From NCBI GenBank assembly GCA_026983795.1, contig JALSTI010000211.1, positions 1-42,202 on the forward strand: a stretch of DNA of 42,202 nucleotides, in the 5' to 3' direction. This document shows positions 3,818 through 14,806 of this stretch, in pieces. Each line of letters opens with the position of its first letter. Position 1 is the first letter of the stretch. Both the position numbers and the translations under genes were made by a program. Under the pieces are notes generated by a model that did no database searches, was not told the origin of the DNA, and saw only the letters and a program-made list of their open reading frames with translations. Origin of the DNA: Melioribacteraceae bacterium. GTDB lineage: Bacteria > Bacteroidota > Ignavibacteria > Ignavibacteriales > Melioribacteraceae.

Positions 3818-4294
3818 TTATTTAATATCGATTTTCCGGTTTATATACTTTCCGTAATCCTTTAACTGCGGCGTGTAGTTTTGGTTAAACAACTCCGACG
3901 ATATTAAAAAATCGGCTGTTGCCCTATTGCACGCTGTAGGAACATTATAGAGTGTGGAGATTCTAAGCAGTGCTTTCACGTCCACATCGTGCGGATGCGG
4001 TTCCATAGGATCCCATAGAAAAATAAAAATATCAATCTTTCCTTCGGCAATCATAGCTCCAAGCTGTTGATCGCCGCCTAAGGGACCGGATTTTAATTTT
4101 GTAACGGTTTTACTTTGTTCTGTTTTTGCTTTAGCAAATTTACGTTTGAATATTTCCTCAATCATTGAGCCGGTTGTACCGGTACAAATTATCTTATGAT
4201 TTTTTAACACTTCCAAATTCCACTCAACCCATTCCGCTAAATCTTTTTTTCTATTGTCGTGTGCAACTAATGCAATAGTTTTTTTATTAGACAT
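3818..4294 (-). CDS. mgsA: Methylglyoxal synthase
   Basis: MgsA converts dihydroxyacetone phosphate to methylglyoxal and free phosphate, a bypass of lower glycolysis. The 158-residue protein has the family motifs: LVAHDNRKKDL (His12), TGTTGS at 38-43, GPLGGDQQ with catalytic Asp75, and WDPMEPHPHDVDVKALLR (Asp95, His100). I chose the ATG at 4294 because a strong GGAGG lies 7 nt before it; the frame is open upstream to 4402 but those residues are not conserved MgsA sequence. Known enzymes of the family are inhibited by phosphate, which makes its place right after the Pho-box porin notable. The 130-bp gap to the porin contains no clear terminator, so read-through is possible. Confidence 0.95.
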   Translation of the reverse strand: MSNKKTIALVAHDNRKKDLAEWVEWNLEVLKNHKIICTGTTGSMIEEIFKRKFAKAKTEQSKTVTKLKSGPLGGDQQLGAMIAEGKIDIFIFLWDPMEPHPHDVDVKALLRISTLYNVPTACNRATADFLISSELFNQNYTPQLKDYGKYINRKIDIK

Positions 4295-4424
4295 TCTATC
4301 CTCCAATATTTCAATGCAAAAACAGCTAAAGTTAATATATTTGTGAGAATAAATTACGATTAAATAACGAATTTTAGAAAACTTCTGTTTTTCATATTTC
4401 AAGTAATTAATTATATTCCAAAAA

Positions 4425-5390
4425 TTAAATTTTAAACTCGAAGTTGACGAAATAGGAAATAATAGAATCTCCTAATTGAGGAGTTTTAATTTTAACATTC
4501 GGTGCAATAGAGAATCCTTTTGCCGGAATAATGTTTATACCTCCGATGAAATACGAATAACCGTCATTATCAATATTTGTATTAGGATCAAAAATATCGA
4601 ATCGACCGAAAATCTCCGCTGCTTTTGAAAACTTATAATTAGCAAATGCAGAAATTATTGTTTCAGTAATTTCCGCTCCGCCTTTATTTGCAAAATCATA
4701 TTCAGCGCCAAATCTCAACGCTCCTGTAGAATATGCGGCAAATCCACCGAATACGGTTTTTGTTTGCGTTAATGTATCCGTTCCGGCTGAATAATCAAAT
4801 GATTCAAGACTTAACGATGCTCCTACGTTGTATCCGCCCTTTGCTATTTTACCCTCTCCGTAATATGCTTGAAACGAAAATTTCTTATAATCATTCTTTT
4901 CTATTTTCTTATATCCGCTACCGTTTGTTACCAATGCACTTATGTTAAATTTTTTAGCAAATTGATTATAATATCCTAATCCTAAATCTGCCGAACTTGA
5001 AAAGTGATTTAAATCCATCGGTGTTTTTTCAACAAACCGATATCCCCAATTATGTTCTTCTACATTGAACATATTCATTCCTTGCAGACCGAATATGAAT
5101 TTACCGTAAGCGGTTTTCCATGCAACCAAAGCATTTTTCAAATACAAACTTAATCTGTCATCTTTCCCGGTATTAAATCTGCCAACATCGGTGGTTACCT
5201 TAAACGAGATTGTTTTTGAGATGTTATTTGCATAAGTAAGATAAACACGATTAATTTCAAATGAATTTGTTGGTTTACTATCCTGATTGTACGAATAATT
5301 GAAATACACCTTTGAACTGATTTTACCCTGTGCAAAAACTGCAACGGAAAAAGATAATAAAACCACATAAACAATAAATATTTTCTTCAT
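4425..5390 (-). CDS. Outer-membrane porin, probably phosphate-starvation induced (OprP/OprO-like)
   Basis: The 321-residue precursor has a clear signal peptide (residues 1-20, ending SVAVFAQ) and then amphipathic beta-strands throughout. Motifs such as NRVYLTY, GRFDIFDPN and the C-terminal strand ISYFVNFEFKI, ending in aromatic and hydrophobic residues, are typical of trimeric porins related to phosphate-selective porins O and P. It lies immediately downstream of phoU on the same strand and has its own Pho box and -10 element in the 209-bp gap. I infer an outer-membrane channel for phosphate or phosphate esters. Substrate selectivity is not proved by the sequence. A generic porin recruited into the Pho regulon is the alternative. 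Confidence 0.8.
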   Translation of the reverse strand: MKKIFIVYVVLLSFSVAVFAQGKISSKVYFNYSYNQDSKPTNSFEINRVYLTYANNISKTISFKVTTDVGRFNTGKDDRLSLYLKNALVAWKTAYGKFIFGLQGMNMFNVEEHNWGYRFVEKTPMDLNHFSSSADLGLGYYNQFAKKFNISALVTNGSGYKKIEKNDYKKFSFQAYYGEGKIAKGGYNVGASLSLESFDYSAGTDTLTQTKTVFGGFAAYSTGALRFGAEYDFANKGGAEITETIISAFANYKFSKAAEIFGRFDIFDPNTNIDNDGYSYFIGGINIIPAKGFSIAPNVKIKTPQLGDSIISYFVNFEFKI

Positions 5391-5435
5391 TTATTTTTCC
5401 TTTTTGTTAATTGGAATTAGTTTAATTGATTACCA

Positions 5436-5511
5436 AATTTAGGAATGCTATATTAACTCAATATTAATAAATAAATAGGAATATGTTAAAAAATTGTTAA
5501 GAAAATGTTAA
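5436..5511 (-). promoter_or_regulatory. Pho box array and promoter of the porin gene
   Basis: Read on the minus strand, TTAACA occurs at 5511-5506, 5500-5495 and 5489-5484, and TTAATA at 5467-5462 and 5456-5451. All starts fall on one 11-bp register; only the repeat slot at 5478-5473 is degenerate. This is the geometry of PhoB/PhoP operators. Nine bases after the last repeat comes TAAATT (5441-5436), a possible -10; TAAATTTG also fits the Bacteroidota TAnnTTTG element. The array therefore covers the -35 region, as at PhoB-activated promoters. Confidence 0.75.
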
Positions 5512-5599
5512 ACTGACAGTCCCAATAAAAATTTGCACTAAAGCGACTTATAATAAATTTTGACAGTACTCCACAATTATTTTACAGCCAAATTAAAAT

Positions 5600-6301
5600 T
5601 TATTCTTCATCTTTATCTTCATCGTCAATATCATCATAAATATATTTTTGATATTTATGCTTAATCAATTTTGCATTAACAATAAAAACCACGTCTTCGG
5701 CAATGTTTGTAGCCTGATCCCCAAGTCTCTCCAGATGCCTGCAAATTTCTAAAAGCTCAATGCCTTTTTCCAATTCATTTATGTTTGATTTGATAAAATT
5801 AATTATTAATTCTTTGTTCTCAACAAATAAATCATCAAGCACCGAATCTTTTATAATTACTTTTTTAGCCAAATCAATATCCTCATTATTAAAAGCATCA
5901 ATAGAGTTGTTTAACATGCTTTTTGCGATAAGGCTCATTTCCTGAATTTTTGTTTTACTGTAAAATGAAGGTTTTGGTGTTAGTTTAGGTTGGCGTAATG
6001 CAATATTTCTCGCTAAATCTCCAATCCGTTCCAAATTTGTATTAATAGTTAAAGCGGAAATAATAAGTCTTAAATCCATAGCAACCGGTTGATTCAACGC
6101 TATTATTTTTTGACATAATTTTTCAATTTTTCTATCGTATTTATTTACTTTATTTTCTCTTTCAAGAACAGTTTCTGCAAAACCGCTATTTTGCTCTTCA
6201 ATGGATTTAACAGCCAAATCCACTTGTTGTTCAACTAAGCTAGACATTTTTATTAATCTTGTTTTTAATTTTTCCAGATAAATATCAAATAATCTTTCCA
6301 T
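5600..6301 (-). CDS. phoU: Phosphate transport regulator PhoU
   Basis: PhoU couples the Pst transporter to the PhoR kinase and represses the Pho response when phosphate is plentiful. The 233-residue protein is all helical with the two expected PhoU repeats; each carries the metal-binding-type signature, seen as NLERIGDLARNIA and HLERLGDQATNIAEDV. The N-terminus with SLVEQQVDLAVKSI is typical. An acidic tail rich in Asp and Glu ends the protein. It lies 15 bp after pstB and is the last gene of the pst operon, with an AAGGA ribosome binding site. Confidence 0.96.
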   Translation of the reverse strand: MERLFDIYLEKLKTRLIKMSSLVEQQVDLAVKSIEEQNSGFAETVLERENKVNKYDRKIEKLCQKIIALNQPVAMDLRLIISALTINTNLERIGDLARNIALRQPKLTPKPSFYSKTKIQEMSLIAKSMLNNSIDAFNNEDIDLAKKVIIKDSVLDDLFVENKELIINFIKSNINELEKGIELLEICRHLERLGDQATNIAEDVVFIVNAKLIKHKYQKYIYDDIDDEDKDEE

Positions 6302-6316
6302 TTCAAATCCTTTTTT

Positions 6317-7132
6317 TTATCCGAATCTACCGGTTATATAATCTTCGGTTTTTTTAACCGACGGGTTAGTAAACAATTTTGATGTCGAATCAAATTCAAT
6401 TAGTTCACCCATGTAAAAGAATGCCGTTTTATCGCTTACCCTTGCCGCTTGTTGCATGTTATGGGTTACAATTACAATGGTAAATTCCGCTTTTAAATTA
6501 TGAATTAATTGTTCAATTTTAGAAGTTGAAAGCGGATCGAGTGCGCTTGCCGGTTCATCCATTAATAAAATTTCCGGTTTAATAGCCAATGAACGTGCTA
6601 TGCATAGCCTTTGCTGTTGACCGCCGGACAAACCTAAAGCCGATTCATGAAGTCTGTCTTTAACTTCATCCCACAAAGCAGCGTGAGTTAAACTTTGCTC
6701 GGCAGCTTCTGCAAGTATTTTTTTATCTTTTATACCGTTTAATTTCAATCCGGAAACAACATTATTAAATATAGACATTGTTGGAAAAGGATTAGGTTTT
6801 TGAAATACCATTCCAACTTTTCTTCTTAATAGAACCGGATCTAATTTCATAATATTTTTTCCGTCGAGAAGTATTTCTCCTGTAATTGTACCTCCCACAA
6901 TTTCATGCATCCGGTTTAAGCTTCTTAGGAATGTGGATTTACCGCAGCCTGAAGGACCGATAATAGCAATTACTTTATTTTTAGGTATAGATAAATTAAT
7001 TTCTTTCAAGACTTTTACTTTACCAAAATAAGCAGAAAGATTTTTTACTTCAATTACCAATTTCTCCTTATTCTTATCTTGGGAGATCTTTTCTTTTAAG
7101 TTAGTTTTATTTATAGCAATATCATTTCTCAT
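6317..7132 (-). CDS. pstB: Phosphate ABC transporter ATP-binding protein PstB
   Basis: PstB is the ATPase of the high-affinity phosphate importer, on the cytoplasmic face of the inner membrane. The 271-residue protein has Walker [10 protein letters not shown] at 59-67, a Q-loop in [15 protein letters not shown], the ABC signature [10 protein letters not shown], Walker [14 protein letters not shown] and the switch His in IVTHNMQQA. The KPNPFP segment is diagnostic of PstB among ABC ATPases. About 25 N-terminal residues, rich in Lys and Asn, precede the domain, slightly longer than usual. It starts 13 bp after pstA. Confidence 0.97.
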
Positions 7133-7145
7133 TACAGCACCAATA

Positions 7146-7994
7146 TCAATATTTAGACCTTGTTAAAATTTTAAATAATAAACTAATAATAGAAATAAGA
7201 GCAATAAGTATTAGCGAGGCTGTCCATGCCTGTTCGTTCCATTCGGTAAACGGAGATTTAGCATAATCATAAATATAAACGGTTAAAGAAGCAATAGGTT
7301 GAAATATTTTGGTTGACCAAAACCTATTCCCTAAAGCGGTAAATAATAACGGCGCTGTTTCTCCGGCTGCCCGCGCAATTGCCAACAAAATACCCGTAGC
7401 AATTCCTTTCCACGCCGATTTTAAAATAATAACCAAAGAAGTTTTCCACTTAGGAATTCCGAGCGCCAAGCCGGCTTCTCTGTAAGAATGCGGAACAAGC
7501 CGTATCATCTCCTCGGTTGTCCGCGTAACCGTTGGAATCATAAGAATTGCCAGGGCAACGCCGCCGGCAAAAGCGGAAAAGTGATGCATGGGCAAAACCA
7601 CAATTGTATAAGCCACCACGCCAACAACAATAGAAGGAATGCCGCTTAAAACATCGGCTAAAAATCTAACGGTGCTTCCAAATTTGTTATTACCGAATTC
7701 TGCTAAATATATACCGGCGAAAATTCCTACCGGCAAACCAATAGCTCCGCCTATTCCAATAAGAATAAATGTTCCAATAATAGCATTAGCCATTCCCCCG
7801 CCCTCTTGACCAACGGGTTTTGGCATGGAAATAAAAAAATCTAAATTTAGATATGTGAATCCTTTAGAAATGGTGTAGTAAAATATAAATAACAACGGAA
7901 TCACAGCTATGACAACCGATAAAAAAGTTAAAGAGAGCATAACATAGTTTGTTGATTTTCTCCGGATAAAATTTAATCTCTTATTAACCAACAC
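7146..7994 (-). CDS. pstA: Phosphate ABC transporter permease PstA
   Basis: PstA is one of the two membrane subunits of the phosphate importer. It has about six hydrophobic helices and the permease coupling-loop motif [16 protein letters not shown] chose the GTG at 7994 (TTG at 7991 is equally possible), because AAAGGTGGAG precedes it and this leaves only an 11-bp overlap with pstC; it gives about 282 residues, normal for the family. The frame is open to an ATG at 8042, but that start has no ribosome binding site and would overlap pstC by 59 bp. PstA pairs with PstC in the membrane and docks PstB. Confidence 0.93.
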
Positions 7995-8970
7995 TGCTCC
8001 ACCTTTTTTCAAAACTCCATACAAAAATTCTTGCCGCAACATTAATTATAATAGTTATTGCAAACAAAATTAAAGCTAATTCTATTAGTGAACTTAGGTA
8101 TAAATCAGAGCTTGCTTCTGTAAATTCATTTGCCAGCACACTTGCCATTGTATATGCCGGATCGAAAAGTGACGGTGAAATCAAGGCACGATTACCGATT
8201 ACCATAGTAACTGCCATTGTTTCTCCAATAGCTCTTCCAAGTCCTAACATTGAAGCACCTAAAATACCAGAACGGGAATTAGCAAGAACGATTTTAATTA
8301 CTTCCCATTTCGTAGCGCCGAGCGCAAGAGCAGCTTCCCTTTGTGAGTTTGGTACAGATTTCAAAACATCTCTTGAAATTGATGATATGATAGGCAATAC
8401 CATAATTGAAAGTATTATAGCTGCCGCCATCATACCAAAACCATACGGAGCCCCTTGAAAAAAAGGAAGATTTCCAAAATGCTTAAATAAAAAAGGCTCC
8501 ACAACATTTCTTAGCAAGGGTACTAAAACAAATATTCCCCAAAGTCCATAAACCACGCTCGGAATTCCCGCGAGAAGTTCAGTCAAAAATGAAAGCGGCT
8601 TCTCCAGCCAGTTAGGAGACAATTCCGATAAAAAAATTGCTACTCCTAACCCAAGCGGAACTGAAATAAGCAATGCTAAAAAGGAAGAGATTAAGGTTCC
8701 ATATATTGCCGGCAAAGCTCCGAATATTTCTTTAACCGGATCCCAGGTAGAATTTACTAAGAAATTCCACCCAAACTTATCAATCGATAACTTTGAACCT
8801 ACATACATTTCGTAGCCCATTACCAGCACAAGCAAGAAAACCAAAAAGGCAAAGAATTGAGTGAGTTTTTTATAAATAAAGTCTCCCGTATTTGCCGAAG
8901 CAATACTACGGGAGAAAACTTTATTCAATGTAAAAAATATTTTATTTTTTAATTTTATTTGTTCTAACAA
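7984..8970 (-). CDS. pstC: Phosphate ABC transporter permease PstC
   Basis: PstC is the second membrane subunit of the phosphate importer, 328 residues with about six membrane helices and the coupling motif EAALALGATKWEVI. ELLAGIPSVVYGLWG and GRAIGETMAVTMVIGN are characteristic PstC segments. The N-terminus carries about 35 hydrophilic residues before the first helix. The start is TTG with only a weak GAG upstream; no ATG occurs before the first helix, so translation may depend on coupling to pstS, 14 bp away. The end overlaps pstA. Confidence 0.95.
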   Translation of the reverse strand: MLEQIKLKNKIFFTLNKVFSRSIASANTGDFIYKKLTQFFAFLVFLLVLVMGYEMYVGSKLSIDKFGWNFLVNSTWDPVKEIFGALPAIYGTLISSFLALLISVPLGLGVAIFLSELSPNWLEKPLSFLTELLAGIPSVVYGLWGIFVLVPLLRNVVEPFLFKHFGNLPFFQGAPYGFGMMAAAIILSIMVLPIISSISRDVLKSVPNSQREAALALGATKWEVIKIVLANSRSGILGASMLGLGRAIGETMAVTMVIGNRALISPSLFDPAYTMASVLANEFTEASSDLYLSSLIELALILFAITIIINVAARIFVWSFEKRWSSVG

Positions 8971-8984
8971 TTAATTCTCAACAG

Positions 8985-10031
8985 TTAATTTATTCGTTGT
9001 CCGTTAACGGTAATTGAGTCTATCTTTTTTTCACAAAGTTTAACAACCGATTTGGGTAAAGGCGCATAATACAAATCTTTTGCATAAGCTTCACCTTTTT
9101 CTAAAGCCCACCGCAAAAAATTAACAAGCGCTTTGGCTTTTACTTTATCTTTCATATCCTTATAAATTAGAAGCCAGGTAAAGCCTGAAATTGGGTAGGA
9201 ATTCTTACCGCCTGCATTAGTCAAAATAGCTCTAAGGTCATCCGGCATATTTTTAGAAGCTCCTTCCGCTGCGGCAGAAACCGTATTAAAGTCAGCTTTT
9301 ACAAAATTACCGTCTTTATTTTTTAATAATAAGTAAGGAAGTTTGTTTTGGACAGCGTAAGCAAGTTCCACATATCCTATTGCGCCCCCGGTTTGCTTAA
9401 CTAATCCCGAAACACCTTCGTTGCCCTTTCCGCCCAAACCAACCGGCCAACTAACAGAAGTACCAAAACCGACTTTTTTTGCCCATTCGTCATTAACCTT
9501 TGATAAATAGTTTGTAAATATAAATGAGGTTCCGCTTCCGTCAGATCGATGGGCAACAAGTATAGCACGATCCGGCAATTTTACGCCGGGATTCAATTCT
9601 TGAATTCTCTTATCGTTCCACATATAAATCTTACCCAGGAAAATATCACCTAAAGTTTTACCGTCCAATTTTAATATTTCTTTGACTGACGGAAGATTGT
9701 AACTTACTACTACAGCGCCCATCACAGTTGGAATATGAAGAATTTCGGTGCCTCGCTTTTCTTTAGCTTGTTTGAGTTGTTTATCGCTCATGGGACCATC
9801 GCTGGCGCCAAAATCTACTGTACCTTCAATTACTTGCCTAATACCGGCGCCGCTTCCTATTGATTGATAGTTTATTTGAACGCCCGTTTTTTGATGATAC
9901 AAATCAAACCATTGCGAATAAATTACATAAGGAAATGTTGCCCCTGCTCCGGTTAATTGAACTTGCGCAATTGTTAATGTTGAAAGCAAAGCAAAAAATG
10001 CGGCTGCAAATAAAAATAATTTGATTTTCAT
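8985..10031 (-). CDS. pstS: Phosphate-binding protein PstS
   Basis: PstS is the periplasmic (or membrane-attached) phosphate receptor of the Pst importer. The 348-residue precursor has a signal peptide (1-22) and then the mature start VQLTGAGATFPYVIYSQWFD, a PstS hallmark. The ligand-binding loops YQSIGSGAGI, DFGASDGPMS and HRSDGSGTSFIFTNYL carry the Ser, Asp and Arg residues that hold phosphate in the family. There is no lipobox Cys, so it should be soluble in the periplasm. It is the first gene of pstSCAB-phoU and has a Pho box and -10 element, and a hairpin over its AGGAG site. Confidence 0.97.
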   Translation of the reverse strand: MKIKLFLFAAAFFALLSTLTIAQVQLTGAGATFPYVIYSQWFDLYHQKTGVQINYQSIGSGAGIRQVIEGTVDFGASDGPMSDKQLKQAKEKRGTEILHIPTVMGAVVVSYNLPSVKEILKLDGKTLGDIFLGKIYMWNDKRIQELNPGVKLPDRAILVAHRSDGSGTSFIFTNYLSKVNDEWAKKVGFGTSVSWPVGLGGKGNEGVSGLVKQTGGAIGYVELAYAVQNKLPYLLLKNKDGNFVKADFNTVSAAAEGASKNMPDDLRAILTNAGGKNSYPISGFTWLLIYKDMKDKVKAKALVNFLRWALEKGEAYAKDLYYAPLPKSVVKLCEKKIDSITVNGQRIN

Positions 10032-10037
10032 TTTTTT

Positions 10038-10061
10038 AGAACTCCTGTTATTGTGAGTTCT
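10038..10061 (-). promoter_or_regulatory. Leader hairpin masking the pstS ribosome binding site
   Basis: On the minus strand AGAACTC (10061-10055) and GAGTTCT (10044-10038) are a perfect 7-bp inverted repeat with a 10-nt loop, ending 6 nt before the ATG. The AGGAG ribosome binding site overlaps the second arm. If transcription starts about 7 nt after TATAAC, the hairpin forms the very 5' end of the mRNA. It could limit translation, stabilise the message, or be a repressor operator. Confidence 0.55.
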
Positions 10062-10068
10062 AAAATTA

Positions 10069-10127
10069 GTTATACTGCCGGGTTAAAGTTTTAAGTTATT
10101 GTTAACTTAATATTAAGAAATTGTTAA
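10069..10127 (-). promoter_or_regulatory. Pho box array and promoter of the pst operon
   Basis: On the minus strand the hexamers TTAACA (10127-10122), TTAATA (10116-10111), TTAACA (10105-10100) and TTAAAA (10094-10089) follow each other with an exact 11-bp period. A good -10 TATAAC (10074-10069) lies 14 bp further on. This is the arrangement of PhoB/PhoP-activated promoters, and the regulator genes lie directly upstream. Confidence 0.8.
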
Positions 10128-10164: not shown

Positions 10165-11202
10165 TTACCAAGCTTTTTTCAATTTGAATGAAAACTCCGA
10201 TCCGGTTTCCTCTTTGCTGGTAACTTCAATAGTTGAATTATGGGCTTCAATAATGTGTTTAACTATTGCCAACCCCAAGCCGGTACCGGGAATAGATTTA
10301 GACCTTTCACGTTCACTTCTGTAAAACCGTTCAAAAATCCTGTCTAAATCTTCTTGCGGAATTCCGTTTCCGGTATCTTTAACTTTTATTAAAACCGATT
10401 TTCGTTTTTCTTCAACATTAATTTCAATTTTCCCTTTTTCAGTGTATTTAATTGCATTCGAAAGCAAATTATTCATAACCTGAATTAGTCTGTCTTTTGC
10501 TCCATATACTTTCATTTTGTCCCTGAGTCCATTAATTTCCAGTTTCAAACCTTTCTTTTCCGCCTGTTCTTTAAATTCTTTATAAATATCATTTAAAAAA
10601 GGTTTAAGATCAAAATATCTGAAACTCATTCTCATTTGACCTGACTCAATCATGGAAATATCAATTAAATCATTAAGCAAAGCATTTAAGTTTTCTGAAT
10701 GGTGAAAAGCTTTTTCTAGAAATTGTTTATTTACTTTATTGTCATAAAGAGCGCCGTTTAATAAAGTTTCCAAAAATCCTTGCAAAGCAAATATGGGTGT
10801 GCGAAGTTCGTGAGAAACATTTCCCAAAAATTCTTTCCTTGCTTGTTCTAATTTCTCCATCTGTTCAATATCCCTTTGTGTCCTTCTGAACATTGCTTTA
10901 ATATTTCCTTCAATGTCCAGCAGAGATTTACTCATTTTAATTTCGTGTGGAGATTTATATTTGTTTTTACGAATATTTTTTATTGTTCTTTTAATTTCAC
11001 TAATTTCAACAGCTCTTTTTTTCCCTAAAACGAATAAGAATATCAAATCATTAATTACTATCAGGATGATAAGGAGAAATACTTTATGGAGTGAAAAATG
11101 GAATATTAGAGTAACGCCCAAAACAAATACAATACTTAAAACAATAATTTCTTTTATAAATATTTTGGAGTGAGAAAAGTTATTTTTAATTTTATTCCAC
11201 AT
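10165..11202 (-). CDS. phoR: PhoR-like sensor histidine kinase
   Basis: This is the membrane kinase paired with the adjacent response regulator. The ATG at 11202 gives 345 residues and an 11-bp overlap with the regulator; a TTG at 11220 is the alternative. Two membrane segments (about 16-36 and 41-59) are joined by only a few residues, so there is no periplasmic sensor domain. The HisKA motif GNVSHELRTP has His131. The ATPase domain shows the N-box with Asn249, DTGNG at 276-280 and GTGLG at 306-310. Only about 70 residues separate the second helix from His131, too few for a PAS domain. Context (pst genes and Pho boxes next door) supports a PhoR role. As in E. coli, signal input probably comes through PstB and PhoU. 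Confidence 0.88.
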   Translation of the reverse strand: MWNKIKNNFSHSKIFIKEIIVLSIVFVLGVTLIFHFSLHKVFLLIILIVINDLIFLFVLGKKRAVEISEIKRTIKNIRKNKYKSPHEIKMSKSLLDIEGNIKAMFRRTQRDIEQMEKLEQARKEFLGNVSHELRTPIFALQGFLETLLNGALYDNKVNKQFLEKAFHHSENLNALLNDLIDISMIESGQMRMSFRYFDLKPFLNDIYKEFKEQAEKKGLKLEINGLRDKMKVYGAKDRLIQVMNNLLSNAIKYTEKGKIEINVEEKRKSVLIKVKDTGNGIPQEDLDRIFERFYRSERERSKSIPGTGLGLAIVKHIIEAHNSTIEVTSKEETGSEFSFKLKKAW

Positions 11203-11878
11203 CTTTAATTCTATATCCAACGCCTTTTACGGTTTCAATAAGTTTAGAATACATACCTAACTTTTCCCTAATTTTCCGTATATGAACGTCAATTGTTCTA
11301 TCTACAACAAAAATATCATTTCCCCAAATTTCGTTTAATAAAACATCCCGTGGAAATACTTTACCTTTATTAATAATCAAAAAATGTAATATTTCAAATT
11401 CTTTTTTAGGAAATGCAATTTCTTCCCCGTCTACTTTAACTGTAAAACGTTCTTTATCAATTTCTATAGGTCCTAATTTAACTCTTGTTTTAATTTCAGA
11501 TTGTTGAGATTTAGTTCTTTTTAATTTAGACTTAACCCTTGCCACCAACATTTTAGGCGATATTGGTTTCTTCAAATAATCATCTGCTCCTACTTCGAAT
11601 CCTCTTAATTCATCCAGCTCACTTATTTTTGCCGTTAAAAATATTATAGGAATGTTTTCAAAATTCTTTTTTAGTCTAATTTGTTTACAGACTTCGTAAC
11701 CGTTCAATTTAGGCATCATGATATCAAGAACAACGAGGTCCGGTTCATAAACCATTTTGCTCAATGCTTGTTGACCATCGAATGCGGATATAACCTCAAA
11801 ACCTTCGGATTCAAGATTATATTTCAAGAACTCAACAATATCTTTTTCGTCGTCGGCTAATAAAATTTTAGGTTTCAT
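11192..11878 (-). CDS. phoB: PhoB-like response regulator (OmpR family)
   Basis: The protein has 228 residues: a receiver domain (about 1-120) and a winged-helix DNA-binding domain (about 130-228). The phosphorylation site is Asp52 in LVVLDIMMPKLNG, with the acidic pair Asp9-Asp10, Thr82 and Lys104 in YLKKPI. The output domain shows the OmpR-type VDRTIDVHIRKIREKLG recognition region and the end VKGVGYRI. It overlaps the kinase gene and lies 1 bp after the oxidoreductase. Family knowledge: PhoB/PhoP proteins bind direct repeats spaced 11 bp, the pattern found before pstS and the porin. I infer that this protein is their activator. Confidence 0.9.
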   Translation of the reverse strand: MKPKILLADDEKDIVEFLKYNLESEGFEVISAFDGQQALSKMVYEPDLVVLDIMMPKLNGYEVCKQIRLKKNFENIPIIFLTAKISELDELRGFEVGADDYLKKPISPKMLVARVKSKLKRTKSQQSEIKTRVKLGPIEIDKERFTVKVDGEEIAFPKKEFEILHFLIINKGKVFPRDVLLNEIWGNDIFVVDRTIDVHIRKIREKLGMYSKLIETVKGVGYRIKDVE

Positions 11879-11879
11879 A

Positions 11880-12884
11880 TCAGTTTACAACTATTTCACT
11901 TTGCTTTTTAGCAGATTCATAAAGCAATTCCAATAATTTCATACGGGTTAATGCTTCGCTACTGGAAGACATGATATTGGGATTGCCTTGAATAACGCTT
12001 ATAAAGTGTTTTAATTCATTCTCATACGATTTTTTATAGAGGTTTTTTATATTGGTAGAACTTGCGGGAGTATAATCAAGTCGAGCCGATTCAATTCTTT
12101 TATATGCGCGAAACGGATTAAGATGGCCTGTACCTTCGGTACCAAAAACGGTCAAATTAAAACTATCTTTTTCAGCATGAAGCGACCAGCTAATTTCAAA
12201 ATTCATTACTGTCGAATTTTTAAACCGTATAAATCCGACGGCGGAATCTTCAACACCCTTAACTTTATGGGAATACGTTTGCACTGAAACGCTTTTTAAC
12301 GGGGGATATTCAATTAACCAAATTCCCAAATCGAGTAATACTATGCCCAAATCGAAAAGCACTCCCCCTCCGGCTTCTTTTTTTCTTTGGAACCATTTTT
12401 CATCACTACTTTGTTTACGCGACCAGCCGCATCGAATGTAAAAAGGATCTCCCAGCTCACCGCTGTTAATTAAACTTTTCAAAAGCATTGCGTCGGGTCT
12501 ATAACGTAAATTCATACCGATTATCGCTTTGCGTTTATATTTTTTGGCAGCATCATCAATTTTTTTGGCTTCTTGATAATTTACGGCGATAGGTTTCTCT
12601 ATTAATACATCCTTGCCTTGTTTCATTGCTTCAATTGCAATTTCGGAATGAGACTTAGTTGGCGTTGCGATAATAACGGCTTGAAGCTCTGGATCGGCGA
12701 GCATCTTTTTATAATCGGTAAATTGATTTTTTATGTTAAATTTATTGCTGATAGTTCTTAAACGGTTTTTATTAATTTCCGCTACCGATTGGATTGTAAC
12801 ATTTTTAAATTTACTTAAAATTGGAAGATGTACTAATTGTGATATACCACCTAAACCAATAATCCCAATTTTTGTTTCTTTCAC
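11880..12884 (-). CDS. Gfo/Idh/MocA-family NAD(P)-dependent oxidoreductase
   Basis: This 334-residue protein belongs to the glucose-fructose oxidoreductase / inositol dehydrogenase family. The Rossmann motif GLGGIS lies at 10-15. EKPIA at 96-100 carries the conserved catalytic-site Lys97. The middle part contains GGGVLFDLGIVLLDLGIWL, the position of the family's conserved Asp and His region; here the usual His of the GxxxDxGxH motif appears to be replaced. Substrate cannot be told from sequence; sugar or sugar-nucleotide oxidation is usual. The GTG start shares one base with the dxs stop codon (TAGTG), with GGAG about 10 nt upstream, so it is coupled to dxs. Confidence 0.85.
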   Translation of the reverse strand: MKETKIGIIGLGGISQLVHLPILSKFKNVTIQSVAEINKNRLRTISNKFNIKNQFTDYKKMLADPELQAVIIATPTKSHSEIAIEAMKQGKDVLIEKPIAVNYQEAKKIDDAAKKYKRKAIIGMNLRYRPDAMLLKSLINSGELGDPFYIRCGWSRKQSSDEKWFQRKKEAGGGVLFDLGIVLLDLGIWLIEYPPLKSVSVQTYSHKVKGVEDSAVGFIRFKNSTVMNFEISWSLHAEKDSFNLTVFGTEGTGHLNPFRAYKRIESARLDYTPASSTNIKNLYKKSYENELKHFISVIQGNPNIMSSSSEALTRMKLLELLYESAKKQSEIVVN

Positions 12885-14806
12885 TAAGCAACTTCTCCTT
12901 TTGCCAATTTTTTATCTTTCAAAAATTCTTTAACTTTTTTGGCAATTCCTTCGGGATCAATTTCCAGTAAGTTATGTAATTCCTGTTGAGTACCATGATC
13001 TATAAATTTATCGGGCAAACCAATTCGAAGTATATCATTTTTATATTTTTTTTCTGCAAAGTATTCCAAAATACCCGAGCCAAAACCGCCGACCAAAGAA
13101 TTTTCTTCCAAAGTAACAATTTTATTGAAGTTTTGAGCCACATAATCAAGCGTATCTGTATCAAGGGGTTTAATGAACCTCATATTAAATAATGAGCAGC
13201 TAATTCCGTTTTGGTTCAGAATATCGCTGGCTTTTTTAGCATAATTTACCATTATTCCAACCCCTAAAAACGCAACATCATGTCCATCTAAAATTTTCTC
13301 GCTTTTCCCGATCGGGATTTCGTCAAAATGACTTTTAAGTTCAACACCGAGGGCAGAACCTCTTGGATATCTAATAGCTATAGGACCTTTTTTATAATTT
13401 ATAGCAGTGTAGAGCATATCCCTCAATTCGGATTCATCTTTAGGAGCCATTATAGTGATTCCTGGTACCATTCTAAGATAAGTAAGATCGAACGTGCCAT
13501 GGTGAGTTGGACCGTCGGCTCCAACTAATCCTGCTCGATCCAGAGCGAAAACAACATGTAATTTTTGCAAAGCAACATCGTGAATTATTTGATCGATTGC
13601 CCTTTGTAAAAAAGTGGAATAAATTGCAACTACCGGAACAATGCCTTGTGTTGCAAGTCCGGCGGCAAAAGTAACGCCATGTTCTTCCGCTATTCCAACG
13701 TCAAAGTACCGGTTGGGAAAATTTTCTTTTACCAGGCTCATTCCCGTTCCATCAGGCATTGCTGCGGTTATTCCGATTACATTTTTATTCTCTTTCATTA
13801 TTTCAACAAGAGCTTTACCAAAAACCGAAGTATAAGATGGCGCTTGCCCTACTTTTTTAATTGCTTTCCCAGTCATTTTGTCGAATGGAGAAACTCCATG
13901 AAATTTAGCTCTCATATTTTCGGCAGGTTCGTAACCTTTTCCTTTTTCTGTTAAAATGTGCACCAATATCGGACCTTTTAACGATTTAATCTGTTCAAAT
14001 ATTTTAACTAACTTTCCAACATTATGACCATTGATAGGACCAAAATATCTGAAACCGAGAGCTTCGAATAACATACCGGGAGTAACAACAGCTTTAACGC
14101 CGGATTCAAAACGCGAGGCAACGGTTCTTAATCTGTCGCCGAAAGAATCCAGTTTACCCGTCAACTCCCAAATAGCACCTTTAACTTTGTTATATTCGGG
14201 ATGGGATATTAGTTCATTAAAATAGTTTGAAATTTGCCAAACGTTTGGCGAGATAGACATCCGGTTATCATTTAACACAACTATTAAATTTTTCTTAAGC
14301 AAACCGCTGTTATTCATTGCTTCGTAAGCCATTCCGCCGGTCATAGCACCATCACCAATAACGGCAACAACCCTTTCGTTATTTTTACCCAATAAATCGT
14401 TAGCAACAGCCATTCCCAATGCGGCAGATATTGAAGTAGAAGCATGCCCTGCTCCAAATTCGTCGTATTTGCTTTCGTTCCTCTTCAAAAAACCGCTTAT
14501 CCCGTTAAGTTTTCGAATAGTTGGCAGCTTATCTCTTCTGCCGGTAATTATTTTGTGTGGATATGCTTGATGACCGGTATCCCAAACAATTTTATCGTTA
14601 GGAGTATCAAAAACTTTATGCAAAGCCAAAGTCAATTCAACGGCTCCCAATCCTCCGCCAAAGTGACCTCCGATTTGCGAAATTACATCAACCATATACT
14701 CTCTTATTTCCGAAGCAAGTTCTTTCAAGCGTTTTGTATCAAATTCCCTAATATCTTTGGGATCGTTTATTTGAAACAACAAGTTGTATTTTGATTTATC
14801 TATCAC
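12884..14806 (-). CDS. dxs: 1-deoxy-D-xylulose-5-phosphate synthase
   Basis: Dxs condenses pyruvate and glyceraldehyde 3-phosphate using thiamine diphosphate, the first step of the MEP isoprenoid pathway, and also feeds thiamine and pyridoxal synthesis. The 640-residue protein has full length. Visible motifs are GGHFGGGLGAVELTLALH (His48), DTGHQAYPHKI, the thiamine diphosphate motif GDGAMTGG at 151-158, and in the second half DRAGLVGADGPTHHG and RYPRG. The GTG start has AGGGA 7 nt upstream. It follows xseB by 26 bp, a pairing (xseA-xseB-dxs) that is common in bacteria. Confidence 0.97.
   Translation of the reverse strand: MIDKSKYNLLFQINDPKDIREFDTKRLKELASEIREYMVDVISQIGGHFGGGLGAVELTLALHKVFDTPNDKIVWDTGHQAYPHKIITGRRDKLPTIRKLNGISGFLKRNESKYDEFGAGHASTSISAALGMAVANDLLGKNNERVVAVIGDGAMTGGMAYEAMNNSGLLKKNLIVVLNDNRMSISPNVWQISNYFNELISHPEYNKVKGAIWELTGKLDSFGDRLRTVASRFESGVKAVVTPGMLFEALGFRYFGPINGHNVGKLVKIFEQIKSLKGPILVHILTEKGKGYEPAENMRAKFHGVSPFDKMTGKAIKKVGQAPSYTSVFGKALVEIMKENKNVIGITAAMPDGTGMSLVKENFPNRYFDVGIAEEHGVTFAAGLATQGIVPVVAIYSTFLQRAIDQIIHDVALQKLHVVFALDRAGLVGADGPTHHGTFDLTYLRMVPGITIMAPKDESELRDMLYTAINYKKGPIAIRYPRGSALGVELKSHFDEIPIGKSEKILDGHDVAFLGVGIMVNYAKKASDILNQNGISCSLFNMRFIKPLDTDTLDYVAQNFNKIVTLEENSLVGGFGSGILEYFAEKKYKNDILRIGLPDKFIDHGTQQELHNLLEIDPEGIAKKVKEFLKDKKLAKGEVA

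Follow-up and report, generated by a model that had tools for sequence, protein, structure and literature searches.

A predicted Pho-type promoter of 11-bp repeats between phoU and a porin gene in a Melioribacteraceae bacterium

A strip of 78 bp between phoU and a porin-like gene of a Melioribacteraceae bacterium (5434-5511, minus strand) is, with high probability, a PhoB-dependent promoter, predicted from its sequence, that drives the porin under phosphate starvation. Positions refer to the window, the whole stretch of 42,202 nucleotides that was analysed (contig JALSTI010000211.1). The porin is very probably under this predicted Pho promoter, and phosphate as the cargo of the porin is plausible only.

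The window carries phoB, phoR, pstS, pstC, pstA, pstB, phoU, the porin-like gene and a methylglyoxal synthase gene, all on the minus strand. PstS, PstC, PstA, PstB and PhoU pass the curated family cut-offs; PhoB and PhoR find these families as their top matches, yet score under the curated cut-offs, and are therefore called PhoB-like and PhoR-like here. The genes are as follows, with scores in bits.

3818-4402, minus: methylglyoxal synthase
4425-5390, minus: porin-like outer-membrane protein, 321 aa, signal peptide recognised by eye
5600-6301, minus: phoU (TIGR02135 183.9, cut-off 130.25)
6317-7132, minus: pstB (TIGR00972 386.8, cut-off 343.2)
7146-8042 (listed ORF), minus: pstA (TIGR00974 287.4, cut-off 193.45)
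7984-8970 (listed ORF), minus: pstC (TIGR02138 318.5, cut-off 196.45)
8985-10031, minus: pstS (TIGR00975 412.3, cut-off 205)
10165-11220, minus: phoR-like histidine kinase (NCBIfam PnpS 281.4, cut-off 400; PhoR 250.7, cut-off 334.2)
11192-11878, minus: phoB-like OmpR-family response regulator (NF053854, PhoB of Bacteroidetes, 242.6, cut-off 270; TIGR02154 227.7, cut-off 296.2)

Comparison with the sister genome BMS3Abin04 places the real starts of pstA and pstC probably about 16 and 17 codons, respectively, inside the listed ORFs. The phoB-like regulator is the presumed binder of the array. An oxidoreductase gene and dxs precede phoB with 1-bp gaps or overlap (11192-14806) and phoB has no array of its own, and phoBR is therefore probably not Pho-autoregulated here. 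The two predicted promoters of the locus are laid out below.

5434-5511, minus: Pho-type promoter of the porin (predicted), six 11-bp slots, 9-bp spacer and -7 box; basis: array, controls and BMS3Abin04 footprint
5506-5511, minus: slot 1, TTAACA
5495-5500, minus: slot 2, TTAACA
5484-5489, minus: slot 3, TTAACA
5473-5478, minus: slot 4, CTATTT, degenerate (no match), degenerate too (ACTACC) in BMS3Abin04
5462-5467, minus: slot 5, TTAATA
5451-5456, minus: slot 6, TTAATA
5442-5450, minus: spacer, 9 bp
5434-5441, minus: -7/-10 element TAAATTTG (TAnnTTTG), 9 bp past slot 6
10061-10127, minus: Pho-type promoter of pstS (predicted), TTAACA, TTAATA, TTAACA, TTAAAA, ACCCGG, 9 bp, TAATTTTA

TTAAYA thus occupies five of the six slots of the porin array (5451-5511, minus strand), and the five TTAACA/TTAATA hexamers on one 11-bp register that a sequence-only reading had described between phoU and the porin are exact on that strand. 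The same reading had the array end 9 bp from a -10-like TAAATT, which is correct: these are the first six bases of TAAATTTG, a perfect match to TAnnTTTG, the Bacteroidota -7 box, which PMC9723704 describes for flavobacterial sigma-A. The phoU-porin intergenic region is 209 bp long with 22% G+C; 20,000 dinucleotide shuffles of it gave three slots on three occasions and never more, compared with the five observed. Only one other register in the window has at least three TTAAYA hexamers, at 10127, ahead of pstS, and 300 order-3 simulations of the whole window produced three slots in one case and more in none. A scan for sigma-70 -35/-10 pairs was uninformative (6 found vs 4.4 expected).

The pstS array has five slots, its TAATTTTA matches the -7 box at five of six positions at the same 9-bp distance, and 47 of the 67 bases of this promoter are common to BMS3Abin04. 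A scan of the organism's own genome, 3.35 Mb in 312 contigs and about 95% complete, found the exact three-slot pattern at 5511 and 10127 only, and the porin promoter was the single site for KTAAYA-N5-KTAAYA-N9-TANNTTTG with zero mismatches; this pattern with one mismatch had no own-genome match. With up to two mismatches the three-slot pattern gave 26 matches vs 40 in the reversed control and the two-slot pattern with the -10 gave 22 vs 29, and weak matches elsewhere in the genome therefore carry no meaning, since they are not commoner than in reversed controls. Among the one-mismatch three-slot matches, those on C81 (a pair at the start of an acetyltransferase gene, which it overlaps) and C207 (the dnaA-dnaN intergenic region) were taken as chance, and the third lies inside the pstS box.

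The design is widespread in the order, where exact three-slot arrays gave 75 matches in 38 of 77 genomes and 2 in the reversed control, a count that tallies overlapping frames apart and comes to 52 distinct sites after the surroundings were fetched. Fifty-one distinct sites outside the window had enough flank for the -10 offset to be assessed, with TAnnTTTG scored at five or more of its six positions. It lies 9 bp past slot 4 at 20 of these (14 perfect), and other offsets average 0.79. A second peak, 9 bp past slot 6, comprises four of the 51 sites, all perfect and with the geometry of the window porin; these (L160, L167, L169 and L178) are all ahead of TonB-receptor-cluster genes, and L167 and L169 are not independent because they come from the same genus. 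Two slots followed by N9 and TANNTTTG matched 30 times in 29 of the 77 order genomes (control 1) and 40 times in 31 of 296 phylum genomes (control 2), and the array recurs ahead of known phosphate genes of the lineage. In G270, which belongs to the genus of the window genome, neither PhoU nor the porin has a close match (best 3.6e-7 and 9.1e-6, respectively) and there is no exact array; the pst system and the box seem to be absent together.

When the 52 sites were sorted by the gene behind them, with one member per cluster scanned, 15 preceded a cluster of 917-974-aa genes whose scanned member is a TonB receptor, seven lay directly ahead of a homolog of the window porin, four preceded pstS, PstS-family or pstB genes, three a 427-441-aa Porin_O_P-like cluster, two a phosphonate-type binding protein and one a PHO4-family transporter. 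These classes account for 32/52 arrays; of the other 20, three precede an acyltransferase, and the rest have behind them a gene that is small or unrelated, or lack any gene on the same strand within 700 bp; some of these 20 will be chance. Arrays before the PHO4-family transporter and two-domain acyltransferases (L170 1647-3878; L156 4659-6431; L168 1608-3347; L169 11752-13491) possibly reflect lipid remodelling under phosphate control. The motif of four to six TTAAYA slots with an 11-bp period, 9 bp and TAnnTTTG provides a testable Pho-box definition for a little-cultivated group and is also matched in the wider phylum sample; it lets phosphate genes be sought among many unnamed ones.

Homologs of the porin differ in what lies upstream according to their context. 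A pst locus usually runs box, porin, pstS, pstC, pstA, pstB, phoU. The fetched regions held 45 distinct homologs, 28 of them in a pst locus, i.e. with two or more pst genes no further than 6 kb away; the porin matches fetched are part of the list, the further ones being mostly weak and partial. A strong array (score at least 18 within 300 bp upstream) stands ahead of 18/28 pst-locus porins vs 3/17 others (Fisher p 0.005), the latter figure leaving out L022, which has no array score. The weight matrix derives from slot 4 at array sites, which include sites ahead of porins, and 11 of the 45 homologs come from regions fetched for an array; minus those 11, the proportions are 11/18 vs 3/16 (p 0.017), and both p values are a mere guide because the homologs are related. 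A strong array is absent from ten pst-locus porins. Four of these closely follow a PstS-family gene (in L132 the box precedes that gene), two (L180 and L182) are two genes behind an array-led TonB receptor, two, from G203 and G066, each have a two-slot promoter with one mismatch, and the remaining two are L208 and L146. In molybdo-oxidoreductase loci, where every named context was confirmed by Pfam, an array is aimed at the porin in none of six scored porins. The proposal of the sequence-only reading that the porin has its own Pho promoter is thus upheld at the level of prediction by the phoB-phoR-pstSCAB-phoU-porin locus and by a design found throughout the order ahead of pst genes and of porins in pst loci.

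Beside the non-pst porins, eight of ten small ORFs examined belong to one family of 109-131 aa, divergent from the porin and apparently secreted (L129 8278-8607, L142 4972-5301, L143 4615-4986, L157 6651-7028, L200 8204-8587, L201 5826-6173, L205 5804-6199, L207 5395-5754). Each of the eight has an array of four slots (25-31), followed exactly 9 bp past slot 4 by TAnnTTTG at five or six of six positions. No convincing Pfam family was found for them, and a profile of the family run over the 77 genomes recovered its eight building members strongly and two weak matches besides.

The window porin has no Pfam, NCBIfam or PDB-sequence match and fails to match PF07396 (Porin_O_P) even at E 10; in five homologs this profile (cut-off 20.9) scores 26.5 (L173), 23.7 (L289), 20.5 (L164) and 20.1 bits (L197), with none in L151. 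Its predicted structure has a mean pLDDT of 51.6 from 3 sequences, and Foldseek places general porins first and OprP at rank 9, a ranking that proves little because model confidence is low. In a tree of 48 porins it groups with a porin of BMS3Abin04 (100/100; 83% identity) and then of HyVt-408 (99/98; 61%), followed by a branch of porins from G203 and G066 (98/98; 48% and 49%). The latter two sit in pst operons behind a two-slot box and -10 with one mismatch each (0/300 shuffles each), and the nearest porins of BMS3Abin04 and HyVt-408 sit in molybdo-oxidoreductase loci, the former with no two-slot match upstream and the latter (L022) with no such box ahead (best promoter fit 6 mismatches). Conservation of the box before related porins therefore holds for G203 and G066 and fails for the nearest porins of BMS3Abin04 and HyVt-408. 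A second HyVt-408 porin, 34% identical, heads a pst operon behind a box.

Behind the 61% porin of HyVt-408 come genes for FeS and NrfD-like subunits and for a molybdopterin oxidoreductase, to which TtrA is nearest at 479 bits (cut-off 1750), and ahead of the porin are a PhnD-like binding protein, a kinase and an NtrC-type regulator. BMS3Abin04 has the same parts on two contigs, which are probably neighbours because their ends share 23 identical porin residues. The cluster of PhnD-like protein, histidine kinase, NtrC-type regulator, porin, FeS, NrfD-like and molybdopterin oxidoreductase is recurrent (L022 3858-14378; L143, L205, L206, L200, L139, L157; L287 and L021). Searching the window genome with the HyVt-408 TtrA-like enzyme gave weak partial matches only, the best 5.2e-13 over 171 residues.

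The comparison with BMS3Abin04 is instructive, as the operator is kept and the gene behind differs. From dxs to phoU the two loci correspond, with proteins 74-88% identical, and the gene behind phoU is a TonB receptor in BMS3Abin04 and the porin in the window. Past phoU, BMS3Abin04 has TTCAAA, TTAACG, TTAACA, ACTACC, TTAATA, TTAATA, 9 bp and TAATTTTA; 53 of the 78 bases of the six-slot promoter are common to both genomes, a figure reached in none of 2000 shuffles (maximum 44), and the flanks agree at 28/88 and 15/43 bases. The hexamer is intact in both genomes at slots 3, 5 and 6 only. As the outer-membrane gene under this strip is a different one in the nearest relative, the promoter seems to have stayed with the gene behind it swapped, and the porin is not constant at the promoter behind phoU. 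The phoR-pstS gap of BMS3Abin04 (L286 6562-6681; G502:C194:14561-14680) holds a 37-codon stretch with stops that resembles the window porin, a weak match (E 6.8e-4 for one genome), which may be what is left of a porin that formerly headed the operon. This exchange behind a kept promoter is the most interesting part of the result. We offer tentatively, as somewhat doubtful, the wider idea that the Pho promoter past phoU is a locus-bound switch with exchangeable outer-membrane cargo and that the porin lineage moves between phosphate and molybdo-oxidoreductase loci; if true, one anion pore could serve phosphate scavenging or oxyanion respiration, depending on which promoter it comes to lie under.

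When phosphate is scarce, the PhoB-like regulator from the same locus would bind the 11-bp slots as head-to-tail protomers. Bound so near to a sigma-A type TAnnTTTG, which lies 9 bp past the last slot, PhoB would replace the -35 and recruit polymerase. The porin would therefore be made from its own start site, besides any read-through from the five-slot pstS Pho promoter. Slots 5 and 6, which both genomes retain, may form the core and slots 1-3 an upstream booster. The porin would then let more phosphate or similar anions through the outer membrane, for PstS to capture. The array, its spacing to the -10, its recurrence before phosphate genes and its preservation in the sister genome are read from the sequences themselves. 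We infer PhoB as the binder, activation by PhoB and phosphate as the substrate, the binding and activation by analogy with PhoB boxes.

The main competing explanation accepts the Pho box as real and takes the porin for a pore of general or oxyanion type that was captured from a molybdo-oxidoreductase locus, stands behind a Pho promoter by coincidence and serves mainly something other than phosphate. Its nearest porins (83% and 61%) do adjoin molybdopterin oxidoreductases on well-supported nodes, and Geobacter ExtI, related by Pfam, is tied to selenite and tellurite (PMC5877670), but the next branch, G203 and G066, is back in pst operons with a Pho-type promoter and the box is present before most pst-locus homologs, and we regard such a capture as rather unlikely. 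Read-through from the pstS promoter, with the nearby box adding little, would suit genes that lie on one strand from phoB to the porin with no terminator-like site found between phoU and the porin in a scan of 5200-5800; a six-slot box with a perfect -10, kept in BMS3Abin04 despite a different gene behind it, makes this improbable.

The array could also be bound by another OmpR-family regulator, as PhoB family scores lie under the equivalog cut-offs and at 20/52 arrays no phosphate gene is evident downstream. The recurrent association with pst loci, the phoB-phoR pair in the same locus and a period and spacing that fit PhoB-type boxes (PMC1906773, PMC4415409) leave little room for that reading. 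As for chance repeats in AT-rich DNA, to which the base composition of the intergenic region lends some colour, the shuffles, the genome scan, the order-wide recurrence, the fixed -10 offset and the BMS3Abin04 footprint rule them out, and we reject them as a negligible prospect. A PhoB-dependent porin promoter is the reading that we prefer.

OprP and OprO are phosphate-selective porins (PF07396) under Pho control in Pseudomonas. The window porin shares with them the anion porin idea and, by prediction, Pho control, and its relatives match PF07396 weakly; unlike them, it has no PF07396 match itself. Within the OprP Pfam family, Flavobacterium johnsoniae OprP is reported with no induction by low phosphate (PMC8115612) and Geobacter ExtI with no phosphate response (PMC5877670). 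In Bacteroides fragilis, PhoB binds its own pstC promoter by EMSA, the 'polyphosphate-selective porin O' BF0375 changes at low phosphate by +3.55 in the wild type and -2.70 in a phoB mutant, and the porin BF2289 falls 3.16-fold (PMC3547664). Flavobacterium TonB receptors and Pus systems are induced by low phosphate (PMC8115612), in line with the 15/52 arrays here that precede the TonB-receptor cluster, but they are of a different class and the accessible text of that paper describes no Pho box for them. Predicted Pho boxes are mentioned in plcP clusters of marine bacteria (PMC4796936). No description of the present motif for Bacteroidota or Ignavibacteria was found in the open-access literature searched, and one may exist in print.

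Judged by its architecture, the porin promoter is putatively a familiar type of Pho promoter whose consensus is specific to the lineage. The PhoP box of Bacillus subtilis has a TTAACA-like core hexamer with the same period, but works with a Gram-positive sigma factor and regulon. The PhoB box of Escherichia coli is built of tandem direct repeats spaced at 11 bp, the last of which stops about 10 bp short of the -10 (PMC1906773, PMC4415409), and the window array likewise consists of 11-bp direct repeats 9 bp above its -10, whereas the E. coli repeat is CTGTCAT and the window has a TTAACA core, four to six slots and TAnnTTTG as its -10. The cyanobacterial SphR box, CTTAACCT, with at least three repeats of 8 bp and a 3-bp linker (PMC1906773), resembles the window array in its TTAAC core, three or more slots and 11-bp period, but comes from an unrelated phylum, and the window design is set apart by a measured, fixed distance of 9 bp to TAnnTTTG.
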